Shown here piece by piece: positions 48 to 11,143 of a DNA stretch of 64,000 nt. The position numbers and the translations under genes are program-made. The stretch comes from a bacterium DOLZORAL124_38_8. Its GTDB lineage: Bacteria > Patescibacteriota > Gracilibacteria > UBA4473. Below the pieces are notes generated by a model. It was not told the origin of the DNA and ran no database searches. It saw only the letters and a list, made by a program, of their open reading frames with translations. The stretch covers positions 1 through 64,000 of the forward strand of contig PDQG01000008.1 in assembly GCA_002747745.1 (NCBI GenBank), read 5' to 3'. Each line of letters begins with the position of its first letter. Position 1 is the first letter of the stretch.

Positions 48-560
48 TCACCAAAAATTCCAACCGAAAAAAATATTTAATAATATTCCCCCAATAATAT
101 GAAATACACCAAGTAATAAATACAAAAAATTAACACTTCTTTTTTTTCTATAAGAAGTAACTTTTAACTTTTTCAACTTACTAAACCTAACCTCCTCATC
201 TTTAATATTAGCTATACTACCCATTTCTCTATAAACAGAGTAATGAGAAATAAAAGAAAAATAAGTACTCATTAAGTGACTTATCCTATTATTTCCTAAC
301 TTTTGTTCTATCGAAATAGCAACAAATATAATCGGAAACATATAATAATTAACAAAATACATCATTACAGCAATTCCTATTGGAAAAATGGCTGCTAATG
401 CGATTACTCCTGACAGTCTTTGGTCAACTCCAAAACCGACAACTGTAAAATCACCTATTACAAGGACAGTAAAAAGCTGTACCATAAGAGAATACTGAGT
501 TCTGTAAGTAGAAAGAGCCTCAACATATTCTTTTTCTAGTAGTTCAGTTGTTTTTTTCAT
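48..560 (-). CDS. hypothetical membrane protein
   Basis: ORF of 170 aa with several hydrophobic segments; no family recognised. Confidence 0.6.
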   Translation of the reverse strand: MKKTTELLEKEYVEALSTYRTQYSLMVQLFTVLVIGDFTVVGFGVDQRLSGVIALAAIFPIGIAVMMYFVNYYMFPIIFVAISIEQKLGNNRISHLMSTYFSFISHYSVYREMGSIANIKDEEVRFSKLKKLKVTSYRKKRSVNFLYLLLGVFHIIGGILLNIFFGWNFW

Positions 561-610
561 ATCTCTAAAATTTTAATTGTAACCTAAAATTTCTTCTTCA
601 TCACGCCCAA

Positions 611-3600
611 CTACCTATTCCCACGCAGACGAATCTTCCCACGATTGAGCAAGTAAAACATTACCGGAACGATAATCAGCGTAAGGAAAGTGGCGAAAAT
701 TAGACCATAGACGATTGTCCACGCGAGCGGTCCCCAAAAGAACGTATTGTCGCCTCCGAGCGTGATATGCGGATTGTAGGTTTGCAAGAACGATACAAAG
801 TCCACATTCAGCCCTATTGCCAATGGAATTAAGCCCAAAACGGTCGTAATTGCCGTAAGCAAAACAGGACGTAAGCGGGATTTTCCACCGGCGATTATTG
901 CCTGATAATATTCCTCTTTCGATAGTAACATTTCCTCGTCCACGCCTAATTCTCGTTTGCGTCTATCAATGAGCAGTTGCGTATAATCAATCAGCACAAT
1001 GGCGTTATTTACGACAATTCCCGCAAGTGAAATTATCCCCATCATCGTCATCAGAATAACGAAATCATCGCCGAAAATAATCATACCCAAAAATACGCCG
1101 ATAAAACTAAACAGCACCGTTATAAGTATCAAAATTGGCTTGCTGACAGAATTAAACTGTGCCACGATGATTAAACCAATCAAAGCCAACGCAATCATCA
1201 AAGCCTTGGACAAGAAATCCATATTTTTTGCCATTTCTTCCTGCTCGCCAGAGAAACTGTAACTCACCCCCTCAGGGAAGTGATAATCTTGCAACTTTGC
1301 ATCTATTTTTTGCACAATTTCATTGGCATTATACCCCTCTAACACATTAGAATAAACCGTGATAACTCGCTTTAAATCTTTGCGTTTTATCGCACTGAAA
1401 GTCGCCACGTCTTTGACTTCTGCCACAGAGGCAATCGGCACTTTAAACAGCATTCCCTTATTGTTACGAAACAGCAATTCTTGATGCATCAACGCCGACA
1501 TATTATAACGATTTTTGGCATTGAAACGCACCATAATATCGTATTCGTCATCATTTTCCTTGAACGTAGACGCATCAAAACCATAAATCGCTTGCCGCAA
1601 TGCCTTGCCCACTTGTGCCGTAGAAAGCCCCAATTCTCGTGCCTTTTCCCTATCCACAAGAATTTGACGCTCCATTTTATTCTGCGTAATATTCACATTC
1701 AATTCCTCAATTCCGGGAATTGCCATTTCGTTAATAAAATCCCGAACATTCAGCACAGTTTTTAGCAATTTCTTATAATCTTCCCCTTTGATTTCCAGCG
1801 AAATAGGATACCCAACCGGCGGTCCTGATTGGTTTTTCTCAACAATAATATTCGCACCAGGATAGCCCTTTACTTTTTCACGAATTTCGGTCAAAACCGC
1901 ACTACTTTTTACCCCTCTACGATATTTGTACTCACGAAACAGCACACTTACCTTGCCCTTATTCGGCATTTCCGCCATAGAGCCACCGTCCACTTGCGGA
2001 TTTCCGGCACCTTGCCCCACTTGGGCGATAATGCTTTCCGCCATATAATTATAGGTCGTTCCGTCCGCCTGCTTTTCCTCGTAAGGTTTCATAATTGCGA
2101 TAACCTTCTGCTCAATTTCTTTCGTGAGTTTGTTGGTTTTCTCAATGTCTGTACCCTCCGGATATTCGATATAGACATTCGCTTGGTTTGGCTCATTTAC
2201 AGGGAAAAATGACACTTTCGGGCGTACAATTCCGACCAATGCAAATGAAAAAAACAGAAATCCAATCGTTCCAAAAAAGAATAAATACGGCTTTCGTCCC
2301 GTGAGTGCAAAGGTCAAAAATCGCTCATAAAATCGCTCTAATCGTGGTAAAAATACGCGTTGGAAAAAGTTTACAACGTGCGAAAATACGTAGCGTTGCA
2401 ACAGCATCGCAATTCCCACAATGATAAATAAATTACCGAATGCGGTAAGCGTTCCTCGCCCAAAAGAAAGCCCCAAAATCACAAAAAGAACGCCCACAGA
2501 AATCAAAACACCCGTGTATAAAAACAGTTTCTTTAGAGGCAAATCCTTATCCTCAGCATCCATAAATCGTGAAGTCAGCATCGCATTGATGACCAAAGCC
2601 ACAAATAGCGATGAGCCCAAAACCACCGACAATGTTATCGGCAAATACATCATAAATTTACCAATCATTCCCGGCCAAAAACCAAGTGGTGCAAAAGCTG
2701 CAATAGTGGTTGCGGTGGACGCAATTATCGGCCACGCAATCTCGCCAACGCCTTGTTTGGCAGCGTCTTTGGGCAACATTCCCTCAGCCAGCAGTCGGTG
2801 GACGTTTTCCACCACCACAATTCCATTATCCACGAGCATTCCCAAGCCCATTACCAAGCCGAAAAGCACCATCGAATTCAGCGTAATGCCAAACATCGAC
2901 AGCAACAACAGCGAACAAAGCATCGACAACGGAATTGCCACACCGACAAACAACGCATTTTTTGCTCCCAAAAAGAACATCAAAACGCCCACCACAAGCA
3001 AAATTCCAAAGATGATATTATTTACCATATCATCAACTTGGGCTTTGGTACGCACGGACGAATCACTCGTAACCGTCAGCGAAATATCTTTCGGCAAAAG
3101 GTTCGTTTTGGCATCGTCTATAATTTTATAAATCTTATCCGCCGCCGCTAATTGGTTTTTTCCCGCTTTTTTCTTCACATCAAGCATTACCACCGGCAAA
3201 CCGTACTCTCTGGCGTAGGTCGTTTTGTCTTTCGGACGAAAATTCACTTCAGCAATATCACGCAAATACACCACACCACCGTTGTTTTTCACGATGATAT
3301 TTTCCAATTCTTTCGGTTGCTGAATCTCGCCAATCACACGAATATTGCGTCGTTGCCCGTTTGAAATAATATTTCCACCCGAAATCGTAACATTTTCTTG
3401 CTGAATGGCTCTCACGATATTGTCAATGGTCACCGATGCCCCCATCATTTTGTAAATATCAACGGCAACTTCCACTTCCATATCCTCTACCCCTCTGATT
3501 TTTACCTCTTTGACCTCGCTCAACTCCTCTATCCTATCCTGCAAAATCTCGCCATATTTCTTTAATTTCTGTGACGGATAATTCCCTGACAAATTGATAT

Positions 3601-4057
3601 TCATAATCGGAATCATCTCGCTCAGGTTTAAATCCAAAGCCTGAGGACTCACCTTTGCCCCACCGTCCATTTTTGGCCAGTCGGCTTTGGCTTTTACCAC
3701 ATCAATTTTATCCTTGACCTTTTGCTTAGCAACTTCAGGATCTACATCATCTTCAAATTTCACTTCGATAGACGAATAATCCTGCAATGAAGTTGAATTT
3801 ATCTTATCAACTCCAGAAATATTGCTAATTTCCTCCTCCAAAGGCTCAGTAATGAATTTCTCAATATCTTCTGCCGAGTTTCCGGGATTTACGGTGCTCA
3901 CATAGACCGTCGCCACGTTGGTTTCAGGGAAATTCTCTTTCGGCATAGAACGGTACGCACTAATGCCCCCCACGAGCAAAATCACGATAAGCACATAGAC
4001 CGTACTGCGGTTGTCAATCGCCCACGAAGACAGCGAAAATTGTTTATCTAATTTCAT
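611..4057 (-). CDS. RND efflux transporter, AcrB/MexB/CusA-type inner membrane permease
   Basis: 1148 aa; typical RND N-terminus (SSWAIDNRSTVYVLIVILLVGGISAYRSMPKENFPE) and duplicated TM blocks (GLVMGLGMLVDNGIVVVENV, SLAGIVVNNAIVLIDY). Confidence 0.96.
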   Translation of the reverse strand: MKLDKQFSLSSWAIDNRSTVYVLIVILLVGGISAYRSMPKENFPETNVATVYVSTVNPGNSAEDIEKFITEPLEEEISNISGVDKINSTSLQDYSSIEVKFEDDVDPEVAKQKVKDKIDVVKAKADWPKMDGGAKVSPQALDLNLSEMIPIMNINLSGNYPSQKLKKYGEILQDRIEELSEVKEVKIRGVEDMEVEVAVDIYKMMGASVTIDNIVRAIQQENVTISGGNIISNGQRRNIRVIGEIQQPKELENIIVKNNGGVVYLRDIAEVNFRPKDKTTYAREYGLPVVMLDVKKKAGKNQLAAADKIYKIIDDAKTNLLPKDISLTVTSDSSVRTKAQVDDMVNNIIFGILLVVGVLMFFLGAKNALFVGVAIPLSMLCSLLLLSMFGITLNSMVLFGLVMGLGMLVDNGIVVVENVHRLLAEGMLPKDAAKQGVGEIAWPIIASTATTIAAFAPLGFWPGMIGKFMMYLPITLSVVLGSSLFVALVINAMLTSRFMDAEDKDLPLKKLFLYTGVLISVGVLFVILGLSFGRGTLTAFGNLFIIVGIAMLLQRYVFSHVVNFFQRVFLPRLERFYERFLTFALTGRKPYLFFFGTIGFLFFSFALVGIVRPKVSFFPVNEPNQANVYIEYPEGTDIEKTNKLTKEIEQKVIAIMKPYEEKQADGTTYNYMAESIIAQVGQGAGNPQVDGGSMAEMPNKGKVSVLFREYKYRRGVKSSAVLTEIREKVKGYPGANIIVEKNQSGPPVGYPISLEIKGEDYKKLLKTVLNVRDFINEMAIPGIEELNVNITQNKMERQILVDREKARELGLSTAQVGKALRQAIYGFDASTFKENDDEYDIMVRFNAKNRYNMSALMHQELLFRNNKGMLFKVPIASVAEVKDVATFSAIKRKDLKRVITVYSNVLEGYNANEIVQKIDAKLQDYHFPEGVSYSFSGEQEEMAKNMDFLSKALMIALALIGLIIVAQFNSVSKPILILITVLFSFIGVFLGMIIFGDDFVILMTMMGIISLAGIVVNNAIVLIDYTQLLIDRRKRELGVDEEMLLSKEEYYQAIIAGGKSRLRPVLLTAITTVLGLIPLAIGLNVDFVSFLQTYNPHITLGGDNTFFWGPLAWTIVYGLIFATFLTLIIVPVMFYLLNRGKIRLRGNR

Positions 4058-4066
4058 CTTTTCGTT

Positions 4067-5227
4067 CTATTTAATTTGCACTTCTGCACCATTTTGAATG
4101 CCTTGACTTCCCTCTTCCACAAGAATTGCATCAGGCATAATTCCCTTGGTAATTTCGACCGTTCTGCCTTGCGAAACACCTTTTTCAACCTGTTTCTTTT
4201 CGGCAAAATACTTTCCGTCTTTTTCATTAATTACAAATACAAAAGATTTGCCCTCGCCGTCCTCTTGGACAGTATTTACGGGCACAGACAACGCATTTTC
4301 ATTGCGATAATCCGCAATTTTCAGAGTCGCCATCAAGTTCGGTTTTATGCTGTTGTCCTTATTCGAAATACCGATTTCAATGTAGAAAGTGCGATTATTC
4401 GGATTGATAAAATTCCCCACTTGGCGAACCTTGCTCGTAAGTGTTTTTCCAATAGCCGGAAATACGATTTGCACCGGAGTTCCCACTTTTATCGTAGATA
4501 AATAACGCTCCGAAACTTCCGAACGCACATACATATCGTGCAAGTTTACCAAACGTGCAATCGGCGTTTGCCCCGGCAGTACGACAGCCCCTTTTTTGAC
4601 CGGCACATCATCAATAATGCCCGAAAACGGAGCAACAATCGTCGTTTTTCCCAACTGTGCTTTTAGCTGTTTGATACCGCTCTCAGCAGCCTCTTTTTGA
4701 GCTTTGGCTTGCAAATATTGAATTTCCGAACCAATTTTCTTCTTCCACAGACGCTCTTGGCGTTCAAAAGTCGTCTTTGCAAGGTCGTATTGCACTTGCA
4801 TTTGCCCCAACTTTTGTGACAAACCACCGTCATCAACTCTCGCAATGATTTGCCCTTTTCTTACGTGCTGTCCTTTCTTCACGTACAGATTTTTTAGCAC
4901 GCCCGAAAACTCCGCAAACAGTACGGTATTGTTTTTCGTATCCACGCTACCTTGGATTTCAATCATACGCTCAAAAACGCCCTGTTTAGGCTTAATTGTC
5001 GTAACAACAGGGAGCTTTTTTGTACCTTTTAATTCTGCCAAAGCAGTATTAATTTGCCCCATTTTTTTCGTGATTGCATTGTATTTTTTCTGCAATTCAG
5101 TTTGCTTTCTTTGCAAACCTGCGATGTCTTTCTTCTCAATCAATCGCTCAATAGATTTTTGCTCTCTTTTCTCGCCACAGCCTACTGCCAATCCTATCAG
5201 TAAGCCTATGTAAATCAATCGTTTCAT
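4067..5227 (-). CDS. RND efflux periplasmic adaptor (membrane fusion protein)
   Basis: Lipobox-like N-terminus (GLAVGCGE), coiled coil, lipoyl/barrel-sandwich motifs (VKKGQHVRKGQIIARVDD, APFSGIIDDVPVKKGAVV); adjacent to the RND permease. Confidence 0.94.
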   Translation of the reverse strand: MKRLIYIGLLIGLAVGCGEKREQKSIERLIEKKDIAGLQRKQTELQKKYNAITKKMGQINTALAELKGTKKLPVVTTIKPKQGVFERMIEIQGSVDTKNNTVLFAEFSGVLKNLYVKKGQHVRKGQIIARVDDGGLSQKLGQMQVQYDLAKTTFERQERLWKKKIGSEIQYLQAKAQKEAAESGIKQLKAQLGKTTIVAPFSGIIDDVPVKKGAVVLPGQTPIARLVNLHDMYVRSEVSERYLSTIKVGTPVQIVFPAIGKTLTSKVRQVGNFINPNNRTFYIEIGISNKDNSIKPNLMATLKIADYRNENALSVPVNTVQEDGEGKSFVFVINEKDGKYFAEKKQVEKGVSQGRTVEITKGIMPDAILVEEGSQGIQNGAEVQIK

Positions 5228-5372
5228 TTATTTTTGTTTTTTTAGTTTTTTAGAGATTAGTAATTAGTGGTTAGTTTTATTTTCGCTGACTGAGCGAAGT
5301 CGAAGTCTTTGTATTTTACCTACATTTTGCTCAGAAACCCTTTATTTTCCCTTATTAACAATATTTTATTGT

Positions 5373-6359
5373 TTATTTTTTCTCCCTTTTTCTCATCTTT
5401 TTCCTAACAAAAACGACAATTAAAATCAAAACCACTAAACCTACTAAAACATTAATAATAAGTTGGTTAGACATTGAGCCTCCATAAGTTGATGTGGTCA
5501 TTCGCATTCCGTCTTTTTCATAAACAGTTTGAAACCCAGTAGAAGTTAAATTTATTTTAGAATCAAGTGATTTATTTTCGTAGGATTTTAGAAAATTCAA
5601 GTATTTTTTCAAAGTTGTGTAAGATTGTCTTGGAAATCCGTGAGCACCATTAAAAGTGTAGGTTTCATCGTAGTTTGCGATTAATTTTTCAGCAGAATTT
5701 ATCAATAAATTAGCCTTTGTATCTTCGTGTAAATCCACATAATCTAATCGAGGGTCGTAGAAAAAATCGCCCGTAAATAGTTGTTTGTGTTTTTCATCAA
5801 CCAAAACAGTAGATTCGCTTGTATGTCCTGTAATATTAAGCACTTGTATTTTTCTATCGCCTAAATCAATCACTTCGTTTGGCTTTATCCATTTTGAAAC
5901 CGTTACCTTTGGTGGACTAAATAACAAGGTTTCACTTGTGGTTAATTTCAGTTTGTTATCCGTTGTTCTTTCTCGCAAATAAGGTAAATCAATCAGCCAC
6001 ACACTCTTTTGATTTTCAATGTTTGCAATATGGTCAAGATGAAAATGTGAATACATCGTAACTACGGGTAAATCAGTAAGTTTATTAACAACAGAAAGTA
6101 TGTTTTTTCCAAAACCTGTATCAAATAACAAGGCTTTTTCTTTTCCTAAAATAAGGTAACTCGTGTTGTAGTACCATTCGGCAGTTGGCTCTGAAATAGC
6201 GTAAGTTTGTTCGTCTAATTTTCCTACAATATAGTAGTCATCTACCCACTCTGAACCCTCCCACAAGGGATATACAAATTTCTCTTTACTCTCTGAACAA
6301 GAGCTTAGTACAAAGATAGTAGCAAAGAATATTGCGATAATTTTCAATCTATTTTTCAT
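5373..6359 (-). CDS. metallo-beta-lactamase-fold hydrolase, probable lipoprotein
   Basis: MBL motif HFHLDH, GHTSEST, FTGDFF; N-terminal lipobox FVLSSC; C-terminal TM segment. Confidence 0.88.
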   Translation of the reverse strand: MKNRLKIIAIFFATIFVLSSCSESKEKFVYPLWEGSEWVDDYYIVGKLDEQTYAISEPTAEWYYNTSYLILGKEKALLFDTGFGKNILSVVNKLTDLPVVTMYSHFHLDHIANIENQKSVWLIDLPYLRERTTDNKLKLTTSETLLFSPPKVTVSKWIKPNEVIDLGDRKIQVLNITGHTSESTVLVDEKHKQLFTGDFFYDPRLDYVDLHEDTKANLLINSAEKLIANYDETYTFNGAHGFPRQSYTTLKKYLNFLKSYENKSLDSKINLTSTGFQTVYEKDGMRMTTSTYGGSMSNQLIINVLVGLVVLILIVVFVRKKMRKREKK

Positions 6360-6362
6360 AAA

Positions 6363-7229
6363 TTATTCCTTTATTGATTTTAATAATTCTTCTGCACATA
6401 ATTTACCAAAATTATTAGCAGATTGCGGACTTGACCCTGTGATAAGTTTTCTATCAATATGACAAGTTTTATCAGCTTTTTTATTCACAAAACTAACGCC
6501 TAATTTTTCTAATGCTTCGCCAAATTTCCAAGGCATATGACCCGGCATATAACCAATCATTGGGCTTTGTTTATCAACACTATCAGGGAATGCCGACATT
6601 TTATAACCTTTGTAAATAAAGTCTTTTTTAGTATCTAAATTTGCCGATAACAATGATGCTGGTGCGTGACAAATTGCCAACATAAACATCTCTTTTTCGT
6701 GTGACCAATGAATTAACTTTCCTAAATTTTCATTTTTTGGAAGTCCGAGCATTGCACCGTGTCCACCAGGAATAAAAACCGCCAAATACTCGTTATTATC
6801 ATTCATTTTGTTTTGTACAAAATCGGCTAAATTTTTCGGTTTTTCAAATTGTGATTTGTATTCTGAATAGATTTTTTTAATATTTTCATCTTTTTGTGGC
6901 ATTGCCCACATTTCTATTTTTACAGACTGACCTGTTGGTGTATAAATATCAACATCAAAACCTGCATTTTTAAGGTGCAACATCGGTAAAAGCATTTCCA
7001 CAGGGTGATTTCCTGTTGAGAATTTTTTACCATTTGCCATTGTCATATTGCGTTCTTCGGTACAAACCATTAAGATTTTTTGGTTTCCTTGATATTTGTT
7101 TTTGTAAACTGTATTATCAAAGTCCGTTTTGTCTGATGTCGCCAATTTTAAGGCTAATTTTGAGGGAATAAATGCTCCGTCTTCCGTTGGTTGCGGTGCT
7201 ATTCCGAATATTTTTTTAATTATATTCAT
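6363..7229 (-). CDS. DJ-1/PfpI family protein, Hsp31/HchA-like
   Basis: 288 aa; nucleophile elbow motif LAICHAPASLL, FIPGGHGAMLGLP, GYMPGHMPWKFGEAL. Confidence 0.88.
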   Translation of the reverse strand: MNIIKKIFGIAPQPTEDGAFIPSKLALKLATSDKTDFDNTVYKNKYQGNQKILMVCTEERNMTMANGKKFSTGNHPVEMLLPMLHLKNAGFDVDIYTPTGQSVKIEMWAMPQKDENIKKIYSEYKSQFEKPKNLADFVQNKMNDNNEYLAVFIPGGHGAMLGLPKNENLGKLIHWSHEKEMFMLAICHAPASLLSANLDTKKDFIYKGYKMSAFPDSVDKQSPMIGYMPGHMPWKFGEALEKLGVSFVNKKADKTCHIDRKLITGSSPQSANNFGKLCAEELLKSIKE

Positions 7230-7272: not shown

Positions 7273-9579
7273 CTAAAGCAAGAACTTAGCTGGTTTTAAA
7301 TCTTTGTAGTGTTCTAAGATTTTTAAATCAGCGATAGAAATTTTCCCAATGTACAATTCATCCAAATTTCCGCCTCCTTTGAGGAATTTTTCGACTTCAT
7401 TATTTCCTCTAAAATAAATAGCGTCTTTGGTAAAACATCCCAGTTCGTTTCCGTCGGTAAACCCTCGTTTGGCTTTTAAGCAACGACTCCAAGCCATGTC
7501 GTCAGAAATATCAAACGTGTCTTTGAGCCAGTTAAATAATTCACGGAAATTCATGGTTTTCGCCATGTAAATAGTGGCAACTAATAAAGCCGGCGCAATG
7601 AATTTTTCTCCGAGATTGAGTCCTAACATATTTTGGTTATGAATCGCGATTCCTTCTTCGGTTTGTAGGTATCCAGCGGTTCCTCGTTGGAAAATTTTGA
7701 ATGGTTGTTGTTTTCCATTTTCATTTCGAAATACATGCGCCCCCACTTCGTGTACGAGTAAGGCATTGAGGCGGTTGGTGGTAAAGGTGGCCGTTTCTTT
7801 GATGAGGATTTTTCCTTTTTTGGTTACTTGAATGTCGGCTACCGAGTCTGATATTTGTTTTACTTGCCAGTGTCCGAGTTTGTATTGTTTTAAAAATTGT
7901 TTGACGATTTCGGTCGCTTTTTTGGCGTCAACGACCGGACTTACATCTGCAGGCATAGATTTGTATTGATCCAAAAACTTGATAGCGTTTTTGTATTCGG
8001 TTCGAGTGACTTTTCCATAAAGTTCTTCGGATCTTTTCGTAAACTCAGGGGTTCCGACGGCTTCTAATAATGATATTTTTTGTTCAATTTCTTCAATTTT
8101 GGCTTCAAACAATGGGAAAAGTGGGTGTTTAACGCGGGGGATTTTTTTCAAATCACGTCGTAGGTTTGAAATTTCGGCTGGTAATTCTTTGTAATAAAAC
8201 CGTGGCACGTAATTTTCATGCGATAAGAACAGTTCTTTTTGTTCGGCGACATTTTGTGGATTGATGTAAGACAATAACTTAATGGATTCATCTATTTCCG
8301 TAATTTTGTCGTCAATGTTTTTTAATTTTTGTTCGCCGACTTGTCCGACTAAATCTTGTGATTCCGCGTGAGAAATTTCTTTGCTTGGGTCAATATAAAA
8401 ATCTCCCAAGAATTTTCCGGCTAAGACTAAATCAACTCCCGATAATCGTTTTTTTCGTACGGGTAATTTAAGTCGTTTTCCTTCAATCGTGATGTCTAAT
8501 AAAGGTGACTTTTCGTCAAAATATCGACTGGCAAGGAAATTTTCTTCGGCTAACGAATCTATTTTAGCGGTTAGGTGATGCACTTTTTCTCGACCATTTA
8601 ATAATACGTGTTCTTGTAATCCGATGATTGGTTTGAAGGGGATTTCTGGTTTGATAATCGGTTTACTTGAAAATAAAGTTTTGGCTACTTGAACGCCTTC
8701 TTCAGCCGAATTAATAGTTAAATCGGCGACTTTTCGGAGACGTTTTTTTTGTGGAACTTGGTTAGCGATTTGAATTTTTAATCCTGCTCGTGCATTTAGT
8801 TCGAGGACTTTAATTCCGTCATTGGTGATAACAAAATCGATTCCGAGATACCCAATGCCCGTTACAATTTGTATTTTGGATGTGGCGTATAAAATATCAT
8901 CCCAAAAAGGAACTTGAAATCCTACGGCCGATTCGCCGTTTGATAATTTTTTGACATAATCAGAATAATACGCTCCTCCCGTAGTTTTTCCGTTTCCGAT
9001 ATCAATTCCCAGTCCGTAGGCTCCTAGCTCCATATTGGCTTTTCCGTCAGATTCTTCGGTTGGAACCCGCAACATGGCTAAAATTGGTACGCGGTTAAAG
9101 GCGATAATCCGGATGTCAGGTAAACCGTTTGACGTGAGTCGTTTGAGGTCGTCGTGCAAAACGAGTAATTCTTCAAACAAAATCGTATCAGAGGTGCCAG
9201 AAATAGAGTATTTCCCGTCGAGAATATCAATACAAGAACGGTATAAATCGTCTTGGTTGAGTTTTTGACCTCCGGCGGTAATCCAATGTTTCCCAGATTT
9301 TTTTACTATTACAACAATTCCACCGCCAGCAAACCCTTTGTTGGGTTTAATTACAAACTGATCGGGAAGTGAATTAAAAAATTCATTGGTTAATTGTTTG
9401 TGCTTTTTGATAACATGATACAGTTTGGCCACCCCAATGCCTCGCGATTCTAAAAACCGTTTAGTAGAAATTTTATCATCAGCAAACTTTTTATCTTTAC
9501 TGGAATTATATCGAGAAATATATTCGAGGTTTCTCGAATTCATACCTAAAATGTCTTTTGATTTTTTTAAAAATTCCAT
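7273..9579 (-). CDS. fusion protein: N-terminal ATP-grasp alpha-L-glutamate-ligase-like domain + C-terminal DUF1704/MATCAP-like metallopeptidase domain
   Basis: ATP-grasp signatures (FVIKPNKGFAGGGIVVI, GIDFVITNDGIKVLELNARAGLKIQIAN); C-terminal HEVGAH ... GYLQTEEGIA matches the HExxxH + E pattern of DUF1704. Confidence 0.85.
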   Translation of the reverse strand: MEFLKKSKDILGMNSRNLEYISRYNSSKDKKFADDKISTKRFLESRGIGVAKLYHVIKKHKQLTNEFFNSLPDQFVIKPNKGFAGGGIVVIVKKSGKHWITAGGQKLNQDDLYRSCIDILDGKYSISGTSDTILFEELLVLHDDLKRLTSNGLPDIRIIAFNRVPILAMLRVPTEESDGKANMELGAYGLGIDIGNGKTTGGAYYSDYVKKLSNGESAVGFQVPFWDDILYATSKIQIVTGIGYLGIDFVITNDGIKVLELNARAGLKIQIANQVPQKKRLRKVADLTINSAEEGVQVAKTLFSSKPIIKPEIPFKPIIGLQEHVLLNGREKVHHLTAKIDSLAEENFLASRYFDEKSPLLDITIEGKRLKLPVRKKRLSGVDLVLAGKFLGDFYIDPSKEISHAESQDLVGQVGEQKLKNIDDKITEIDESIKLLSYINPQNVAEQKELFLSHENYVPRFYYKELPAEISNLRRDLKKIPRVKHPLFPLFEAKIEEIEQKISLLEAVGTPEFTKRSEELYGKVTRTEYKNAIKFLDQYKSMPADVSPVVDAKKATEIVKQFLKQYKLGHWQVKQISDSVADIQVTKKGKILIKETATFTTNRLNALLVHEVGAHVFRNENGKQQPFKIFQRGTAGYLQTEEGIAIHNQNMLGLNLGEKFIAPALLVATIYMAKTMNFRELFNWLKDTFDISDDMAWSRCLKAKRGFTDGNELGCFTKDAIYFRGNNEVEKFLKGGGNLDELYIGKISIADLKILEHYKDLKPAKFLL

Positions 9580-9607: not shown

Positions 9608-11143
9608 CTATTCTTGTTCATCTTCGCCTTTATTTTGGAAGATGGTTCGGAATTTGACGTATTCTGAAAGTCGGAGTCCTGTGAATTTTCCGAGCCAAAC
9701 ATTTCCTAGTACTGGCAAGAGAATTATTTCGGGAGTTGAAGTAATGGTATTAGAAATACTTGGTATTTTGAGCAACGCAAAAGCAATTAAACTTACGAAT
9801 ACGGTTTCTCCAGCGGAAATTAAAGCTTTTTTGAGTCCGCCTTCAGATTGAGCCGAAACGAATTTTTCCGATACGGTAGCCATCACCATAAGCGGGAAAA
9901 TTGCCAACACTAAGTTGATGGATGTGTCGAAATATACGGCGAGCCCTAGTACGGGTAAAAACGAAATAGCGAGGGCTGAGTGTAATAAGGAGACTCGTGG
10001 AATGTAGAGTAATTCAACTTTTTTAAAGATCGACCGAATCATGTATCCGACCACCATTACGACTAAGAATGACAAGAATCCAAAGTTAAATCCGAGCAAT
10101 AAAAAGCTGAGGGTCAACATCAGCGGTGAAAAAACCCCAAAAGTCGAAATTCCGATAAATTGTCGGAAAAAAGCAATGACAAACGTAATAAATGGAACTG
10201 CTAAGAGCAGATAAATTACATTGGCTGAAATACCGTTGGCCACAAAATAACTCGTAAGATTTGAAAAAATTAAGAACGGATTTTTGTGGTTGAGTCCGTC
10301 AACTAATTCAAAGCTAATGCCTCTTTTTTGGAGGGTTTGTACAATTTGCGGATTTCCCAATTGTTCAAAAATTGTGTTCAATGCCGAAAACCGAGTAACA
10401 ATAATTGATTTTGGTTGGATAATTTTTCGGGCGGTTTCAGATAGTTGCGAAATTTGTTTCAAAGAACCGCCTGTTAATTGTACCCATAGTTTGTTTTTGG
10501 CTTCAATATTCGGGGTCTTTTTGTTCCACCATTGGGCGAAATTTTGTAATCCTTTTGAATATTCAATATTGAAAATAATAAGGTTGGCTTCTCGTAGGGC
10601 TTCCGCGTTTTCTGACAGATTTTGTAAGAATTTTCCTTCGCTAACTAATCCAGATTGTCCATCTTTAATAAAAATTGGTTTGAGGTAAATCCCGTGAGCC
10701 CCAGCTTGGTGAATGATTTCTTCAGAATTTTTATTGGGGGAAGTAATAAATAATCCTGTTTTGTTATAAACAAAAATCTCTTTGGTGCGTTCGCGTACTT
10801 GATCTCCTTGTTTTATTTTCAACAAAACGGTTTGTTTTCCAAGTTTTTGGAATTTTCGTTCAACGGTTTTTCCAAATCGGAGTCCTTGTTCGTTGACTTG
10901 TGGCCAAATAAATCGTGCTGGACTTACTTCTTCGGACAATATTTGTGAGTTTTCGCCTGAAAAGTTCACGGCCACTCCTTGTCGGACAAACGTTGGTCCG
11001 TCAATCAGTGGTTGAATGATTTTACTAGGTTCTAATATTAATGGTTTGGCGTCATCAGGGACGTCATTTTGAGTATTGGCTACGGCCCATGTTTGAGTAA
11101 CACAACAAAGGCTCAAAATAAGTGTTGTTAATAGTTTGTTCAT
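9608..11143 (-). CDS. exported PKD-like domain + 7-TM protein (family usually fused to an inactive transglutaminase)
   Basis: Signal peptide; PKD-like segment (VRQGVAVNFSGENS...FIWPQV...KQTVLLKI); C-terminal multi-TM block with MVMATVSEKFVSAQSEGGLKKAL; next to the ATP-grasp gene. Confidence 0.75.
   Translation of the reverse strand: MNKLLTTLILSLCCVTQTWAVANTQNDVPDDAKPLILEPSKIIQPLIDGPTFVRQGVAVNFSGENSQILSEEVSPARFIWPQVNEQGLRFGKTVERKFQKLGKQTVLLKIKQGDQVRERTKEIFVYNKTGLFITSPNKNSEEIIHQAGAHGIYLKPIFIKDGQSGLVSEGKFLQNLSENAEALREANLIIFNIEYSKGLQNFAQWWNKKTPNIEAKNKLWVQLTGGSLKQISQLSETARKIIQPKSIIVTRFSALNTIFEQLGNPQIVQTLQKRGISFELVDGLNHKNPFLIFSNLTSYFVANGISANVIYLLLAVPFITFVIAFFRQFIGISTFGVFSPLMLTLSFLLLGFNFGFLSFLVVMVVGYMIRSIFKKVELLYIPRVSLLHSALAISFLPVLGLAVYFDTSINLVLAIFPLMVMATVSEKFVSAQSEGGLKKALISAGETVFVSLIAFALLKIPSISNTITSTPEIILLPVLGNVWLGKFTGLRLSEYVKFRTIFQNKGEDEQE

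Follow-up and report, generated by a model that had tools for sequence, protein, structure and literature searches.

A ligase–metallopeptidase fusion with a degenerate retropepsin domain in an rlo-like operon of Gracilibacteria: indications of an exchanged eraser

Introduction

The closest described bacterial systems pair an ATP-grasp ligase with a protease of the retropepsin family. RimK, which also makes poly-Glu, attaches glutamates to RpsF; RimB removes the RimK-added glutamates and also stimulates RimK. The catalytic aspartate of RimB is essential (the D31E variant is dead), and a RimBK hybrid is proteolytic (PMC11957791). The rlo operon of Pseudomonas aeruginosa, which affects cell shape and stress tolerance and has a role in hypo-osmotic tolerance, encodes the retropepsin RloA, the membrane protein RloB and the ATP-grasp protein RloC. 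RloA cleaves Glu-rich sequences, and the defect of the rloA1-3 mutant is rescued when either rloB or rloC is deleted (PMC12239564), so that ligase and protease are genetically opposed. Legionella adelaidensis (L071) carries an rlo operon in which RloA is annotated likewise. The human MATCAP/TMCP enzymes (KIAA0895L, KIAA0895; PDB 7z5g) are carboxypeptidases and deglutamylases on tubulin that contain no ligase or retropepsin domain, and TMCP1/2 shorten glutamate chains as metallocarboxypeptidases (PMC10499314).

The window analyzed here, a stretch of 64,000 nucleotides from contig PDQG01000008.1, belongs to a tiny uncultured Gracilibacterium (0.91 Mb, 10 contigs), with Candidatus Gracilibacteria as the nearest named relatives of the locus under study. 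A previous sequence-only reading had described one of its proteins as an ATP-grasp ligase fused to a DUF1704/MATCAP-like metallopeptidase, a possible writer-eraser enzyme understood by analogy to tubulin. That description proved incomplete, as it missed a degenerate retropepsin domain between the two halves as well as the RloB-like gene directly upstream.

Domain organization of the fusion protein

The fusion gene (7273..9579, minus strand) encodes, in a single frame, a protein of 768 aa with an ATP-grasp, a degenerate retropepsin and a MATCAP domain. The N-terminal part (residues 16-284; 8728..9534, minus strand) is a ligase domain of the ATPgrasp_ST (RloC) type, matching PF14397 with an E-value of 9.8e-56 (hmmscan) and 189 bits against a curated Pfam cut-off of 31.4. 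The C-terminal part (residues 451-758; 7306..8229, minus strand) is a MATCAP (formerly DUF1704) metallopeptidase domain (PF08014, E-value 2.3e-49; 169 bits against a cut-off of 27) that resembles human MATCAP in both sequence and fold. The single two-domain chain read from the letters is thus borne out by profile searches, both halves scoring far above the curated cut-offs. More specialized models remain below theirs. The ligase half scores 231 bits with TIGR02291 (NCBIfam, cut-off 314) and is by that curated model a relative of the family rather than a member, the C-terminal half scores 187 bits with TIGR02421, the QEGLA subgroup of bacterial MATCAP in NCBIfam (cut-off 339), and the RimK profile of Pfam reaches 14.1 (cut-off 21). 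No signal peptide or hydrophobic N-terminus was found in the fusion protein.

The catalytic residues of both halves are retained, and alignment of 57 orthologues revealed no loss. The MATCAP domain contains the metal-binding and catalytic motif HEVGAH (H610, E611 and H615; residues 610-615, 7735..7752, minus strand), which is invariant (57/57), followed by TEEG (residues 640-643; 7651..7662, minus strand) with the third metal ligand E642. Both motifs had been recognized before, and none of H610, E611, H615, E642 and G643 varies in any orthologue. In the ligase half, the motif LELNAR (8788..8805, minus strand) supplies the Mg-binding residues E260 and N262; these are invariant (57/57), as are K36, K40, K78, the glycine loop G82/G85/G87, E136, D155, R157, D248 and R264. 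Of these, K36, K40, K78, the glycine loop and D248 belong, with E260 and N262, to the ATP- and Mg-binding set of ATP-grasp enzymes.

We built an AlphaFold model on the 57 orthologues (mean pLDDT 90.6, pTM 0.55), in which each domain appears well defined, while the low pTM leaves their predicted mutual placement uncertain. The best match of this model in the PDB (Foldseek) is human MATCAP (7z5g, E-value 1.1e-13), to which the C-terminal half also aligns by sequence (phmmer, E-value 9e-16). The next fold matches are RimK with RpsF and ArgX with LysW. The structural comparison agrees with the identity that had been assigned to both halves.

Reality and spread of the fusion

The fusion is widespread in the Gracilibacteria/Peregrinibacteria class. 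MATCAP was found in 51 of 60 class genomes and a strong ATPgrasp_ST match in 50 of the 60 (the window's own genome counted in both cases). Both domains lie in one open frame in 47 of the 49 class genomes that have both. The standard code suffices for this in 40 of the 49, and a further seven, which are TGA-recoded, are fused once TGA is read as Gly. The apparent separate adjacent genes in these recoded relatives (7/7) are thus an artefact of reading TGA as a stop. In the two remaining members (G012 and G035; loci L061 and L053), the frame shifts between the remnant of the retropepsin and MATCAP, which reflects either a sequencing error or a true split.

Related loci were collected as the best 80 from the genome collection, most of which span nearly the whole query. 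They come from Gracilibacteria, Peregrinibacteria, Peribacteria, Magasanikbacteria, Uhrbacteria and others, and all 65 further species-level loci that were translated among them are free of stops (65/65). With the equivalent frame open across dozens of genera, an annotation or assembly artefact is ruled out, and the survey decides for a fusion over neighboring genes. No plasmid record (0/72,556) covers 80% of the fusion query in one place; in the Proteobacteria found by the same search, the ligase and MATCAP halves are separate proteins. A literature search for DUF1704/QEGLA together with ATP-grasp returned no account of the fusion, and no more than two of the papers covered name DUF1704 or QEGLA; Iyer et al. 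(2009), on amidoligases, lay outside its scope and may mention it. The parts belong to known families, and their combination, with a dead retropepsin between them, seems new as far as the searched literature goes.

A degenerate retropepsin between the two halves

The region between ligase and MATCAP is not an unstructured linker, a possibility that was ruled out by its homology to retropepsins. Residues of about 314-403 (8371..8640, minus strand) form a six-stranded beta domain in the model, which alignment and hhalign identify as a RimB/RloA-family retropepsin with a decayed active site: D-S-L-A (8548..8559, minus strand) replaces the D-T-G-A of the active site. Taken alone, the window protein gives no match to PF05618 in Pfam. 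The assignment runs through Patescibacteria outside the class, where ATPgrasp_ST proteins, mostly of 420-550 aa, carry a C-terminal domain with AKIDTGAxxTSI and IIGRKDLKxFLVDP. Four out of five tested chains of this kind (L080, L081, L085, L086, L090) pass the PF05618 cut-off, the exception being L080, which gives only weak matches to general aspartyl-protease models. A profile of seven intact domains plus the Legionella RloA finds PDB entries 2pma, 9g58 and 9g59 (E-values 2e-17 to 4e-11). The window-type domain matches the intact fused retropepsin domains with a probability of 99% in hhalign (2e-18), and direct BLAST matches to intact domains (up to 3e-17) were obtained with many fused proteins from other families. 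The intact Patescibacteria domains are needed as a bridge, because a direct hhalign comparison of the window-type domain with the single Legionella RloA reached a probability of only 14%. Between the motif and the C-terminal strands, in the stretch that holds the flap of RloA, the window has a much shorter insert.

Two long chains outside this pattern were also seen. One of 922 aa (L086:7411-10176) joins ATPgrasp_ST, an intact retropepsin and a second ATP-grasp domain, and one of 856 aa (L183:3212-5779) contains ATPgrasp_ST and an intact retropepsin.

The RloB-like gene and the organization of the operon

The first gene of the operon lies 28 bp upstream of the fusion gene and encodes an RloB-like membrane protein of 511 aa (9608..11143, minus strand; PF14402, E-value 1.2e-27), with its 7TM_transglut region at residues 308-501 (9641..10222, minus strand). 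Since a 7TM_transglut gene precedes the fusion gene, the locus can be read as a relative of the Pseudomonas rlo operon, though without some of its defining features. The match of the RloB-like protein to the NCBIfam RloB model is far below the cut-off, and PF14400, the inactive transglutaminase domain, was not detected in this protein or in six relatives, which have a PKD domain instead. The model (pLDDT 87) consists of a signal helix, a PKD-like sandwich (residues 52-134; 10742..10990, minus strand), an alpha/beta domain and a seven-helix region. Among these, Foldseek identified the PKD-like domain alone and gave no assignment for the alpha/beta domain, and related copies have a clear PKD domain (PF18911). 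Patescibacteria RloB-like proteins thus show PKD and alpha/beta domains at the position of the inactive transglutaminase of Pseudomonas RloB.

Ligase and RloB are inherited together. The 7TM_transglut domain occurs in 48 of 60 class genomes, all 48 of which also carry the ATP-grasp gene, and an RloB-like gene is present at 74 of 81 loci (the best 80 and the window), while some class families have it elsewhere in the genome. Judged by this conservation, the fusion gene provides the enzyme of an rlo-like operon that occurs across the class. A plasmid ORF of Halobacterium (L073:5152-6918, 589 aa), in which an RloB-like 7TM region is fused to an ATPgrasp_ST-like domain, supports a direct coupling of RloB and RloC.

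The RloB-like gene is the only neighbor that recurs in most of the 81 loci; no conserved third gene, candidate substrate or precursor peptide was found across them. This bears on a biosynthetic explanation, in which MATCAP would trim a precursor and the ATP-grasp domain would then extend or cap the exposed C-terminus, yielding a peptide that is exported or displayed by RloB. Fusions usually favor consecutive steps, the membrane protein RloB has a predicted extracytoplasmic PKD-like part, and the fold matches of the fusion model include RiPP-type ATP-grasp ligases. We nevertheless regard such a pathway as unlikely, given the missing precursor gene and the opposition of ligase and protease in the nearest studied systems.

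Downstream of the fusion gene, positions 48-7229 of the window encode an RND pump with its adaptor, a metallo-beta-lactamase-fold protein and HchA, and have a foreign look. HchA is closest to Flammeovirga (57%, plasmid records), the pump shares 24-35% identity with the pumps of relatives, and the GC3 of these genes ranges from 0.20 to 0.48. As the region sits at the contig start, both horizontal transfer and a chimeric contig end are possible.

Comparison with Rlo, Rim and MATCAP

The locus shares with RloABC an ATPgrasp_ST-type ligase beside a 7TM_transglut protein and a member of the retropepsin family. In P. aeruginosa, a separate, secreted and active RloA opposes RloB/RloC (PMC12239564), whereas the window carries a decayed retropepsin as part of the ligase chain, the chain has gained a MATCAP metallopeptidase and lacks a signal peptide, and the membrane protein has PKD-like and alpha/beta domains without a recognizable inactive transglutaminase. 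Because proteobacterial RloA is secreted, the compartment differs.

With RimK/RimB and RimBK, the likeness is a ligase with a retropepsin partner, separate or in the same chain, which in their case removes glutamates (PMC11957791). The window ligase is of the ATPgrasp_ST rather than the RimK family, its retropepsin follows the ligase while that of RimBK is N-terminal, its active-site motif is lost and a metallopeptidase is added. The pairing of ligase and protease, first argued from domain logic, stands on firmer ground, and the RimBK hybrid is a precedent for it.

Human MATCAP/TMCP belongs to the same domain family, with HExxxH and EEG in both (PMC10499314). The earlier choice of tubulin ligases and MATCAP as the nearest analogy gives way to RimK/RimB and RloC/RloA, which are closer. 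Tubulin is not expected in the bacterium of the window. The frame for the fusion seems to be an rlo/rim-type system with an exchanged eraser, ahead of tubulin-like chemistry.

A further bacterial pairing of MATCAP with ATP-grasp exists in rhizobia (L072, L099, L100, L101), where an operon contains genes for an N-formylglutamate amidohydrolase-like protein (FGase), a MATCAP of the QEGLA type and a glutathione-synthetase-like (GshB-like) ATP-grasp protein. It differs in that the genes are separate, the ATP-grasp is of the glutathione-synthetase type, the partner is FGase-like and neither RloB nor a retropepsin was seen. Vibrio sp. HDW18 (L074) has MATCAP and an FGase domain joined in one protein, and Patescibacteria contain a divergent group of MATCAP proteins of about 430-480 aa that are located away from RloB/RloC (L052, L065, L066, L067, L087, L089). 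These arrangements would fit a metabolic link, in which MATCAP recycles peptides or supplies the amino acid of the ligase without acting on the ligase product. Both the class-wide fusion to the ligase and a retropepsin decay that is confined to lineages with MATCAP favor a shared substrate, and a separate purpose of this kind seems to us improbable.

Decay of the retropepsin motif and presence of MATCAP

We compared the retropepsin motif D[TS]G[AS] in 106 ligase chains of Patescibacteria. It is intact in all chains from genomes without MATCAP (34/34) and in all those from genomes with only a divergent MATCAP (7/7), in six of 19 where the genome has a separate MATCAP of the fusion type, and in none of the 46 chains to which MATCAP is fused. 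Of these 46, 23 are without the Asp, 21 retain the Asp alone, and two have a Lys after an unchanged D-[TS]-G (DTGK and DSGK). The window retains the Asp, as do 38 of the 57 orthologues. No PF05618 retropepsin was recognizable in the 60 class genomes, so that MATCAP is the one protease of the system left intact in this class.

In a phylogeny of the ATP-grasp domain, fusion requires two changes (a clade of 44 members and the pair L095/L096) and motif alteration to five. Deviations occur in the fused clade, in L095/L096 (DTSR), in L091/L092 (NTGR, with MATCAP adjoining) and in the f39 lineage with its sister L088 (DTGI, DTGV or DTGE, with MATCAP usually a few kb away). Every one of them falls in a MATCAP-bearing lineage. 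The f39 motif keeps D-T-G, so judging by its sequence this retropepsin may well be active. Fisher's test gives 2e-23 for motif against MATCAP and ignores shared ancestry, for which reason we do not take it as evidence of correlated change, and an independent-pairs test (0 against 2-3) is far from significant. The idea of a replacement rests on few independent events, about three to four. Loci L080 and L081, which encode RloB, an intact ligase-retropepsin chain and an adjoining separate MATCAP gene, are possible intermediates toward the fusion by their gene content.

The Asp retained in the window and the D-[TS]-G of the two fused members speak against a replacement and could indicate a middle domain that is a still-active retropepsin with an unusual motif, MATCAP being an extra activity. 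The motif is wholly lost in half of the fused proteins, the flap-region insert of the window is much reduced in length, and a D-to-E exchange alone kills RimB (PMC11957791), which makes an active middle domain very unlikely indeed.

Proposed function

Replacement of the retropepsin by MATCAP as the trimmer of the ligase product is the best overall explanation of the rlo-like fusion, and we give it slightly better than an even chance. Like RimK, the ATP-grasp domain would spend ATP on extending the C-terminus of a peptide or protein by an amino acid, for which glutamate is the likeliest candidate. MATCAP would trim the ligase-added residues, as TMCP/MATCAP does on tubulin, standing in for the retropepsin eraser. 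The dead retropepsin domain may have been kept as a structural or activating linker, the latter role being suggested by RimB, which stimulates RimK in Pseudomonas as well. Finally, the RloB-like protein would link either the product or the enzymatic activity with the membrane. The trimmed product probably consists of Glu-rich tails, since RimB, RloA and human MATCAP/TMCP all remove glutamates.

A role in envelope or low-osmolarity stress is probable for the system. A QEGLA gene shows a 27.5-fold change in a salinity transcriptome of Photobacterium damselae (PMC10308900); the direction, read from other entries of the same table, hints at an increase at 1% NaCl.

Ligation, trimming, glutamate specificity, antagonism and the osmotic-stress link are what we infer from these analogies. 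The notion that one protein both ligates and removes residues has gained from the rlo-like operon, from the opposition of RloB/RloC to RloA and from the glutamate-removing relatives, and ‘writer-eraser’ is a plausible name for the fusion protein on these comparative grounds. A wider version would have one polypeptide install and remove poly-amino-acid tails, MATCAP having displaced the ancestral retropepsin, whose dead remnant tunes the ligase, and the MATCAP family having originally trimmed ligase-made Glu tails; this we put forward tentatively, as possible rather than probable.

Implications

A natural one-chain version in which the protease is unrelated restricts the range of possible RloB/RloC chemistry, because two glutamate-removing protease families would converge on the same kind of ligase. 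Bacterial MATCAP (DUF1704/QEGLA) proteins gain a testable function, and a role preceding tubulin becomes plausible for the human MATCAP enzymes. If the explanation is true, the active site of an eraser has eroded where another eraser is fused to the ligase, and in the wider, more tentative version the locus would represent a non-orthologous swap of erasers with intermediates across one phylum. Our analysis thus suggests that one eraser replaced another within a bacterial stress system.
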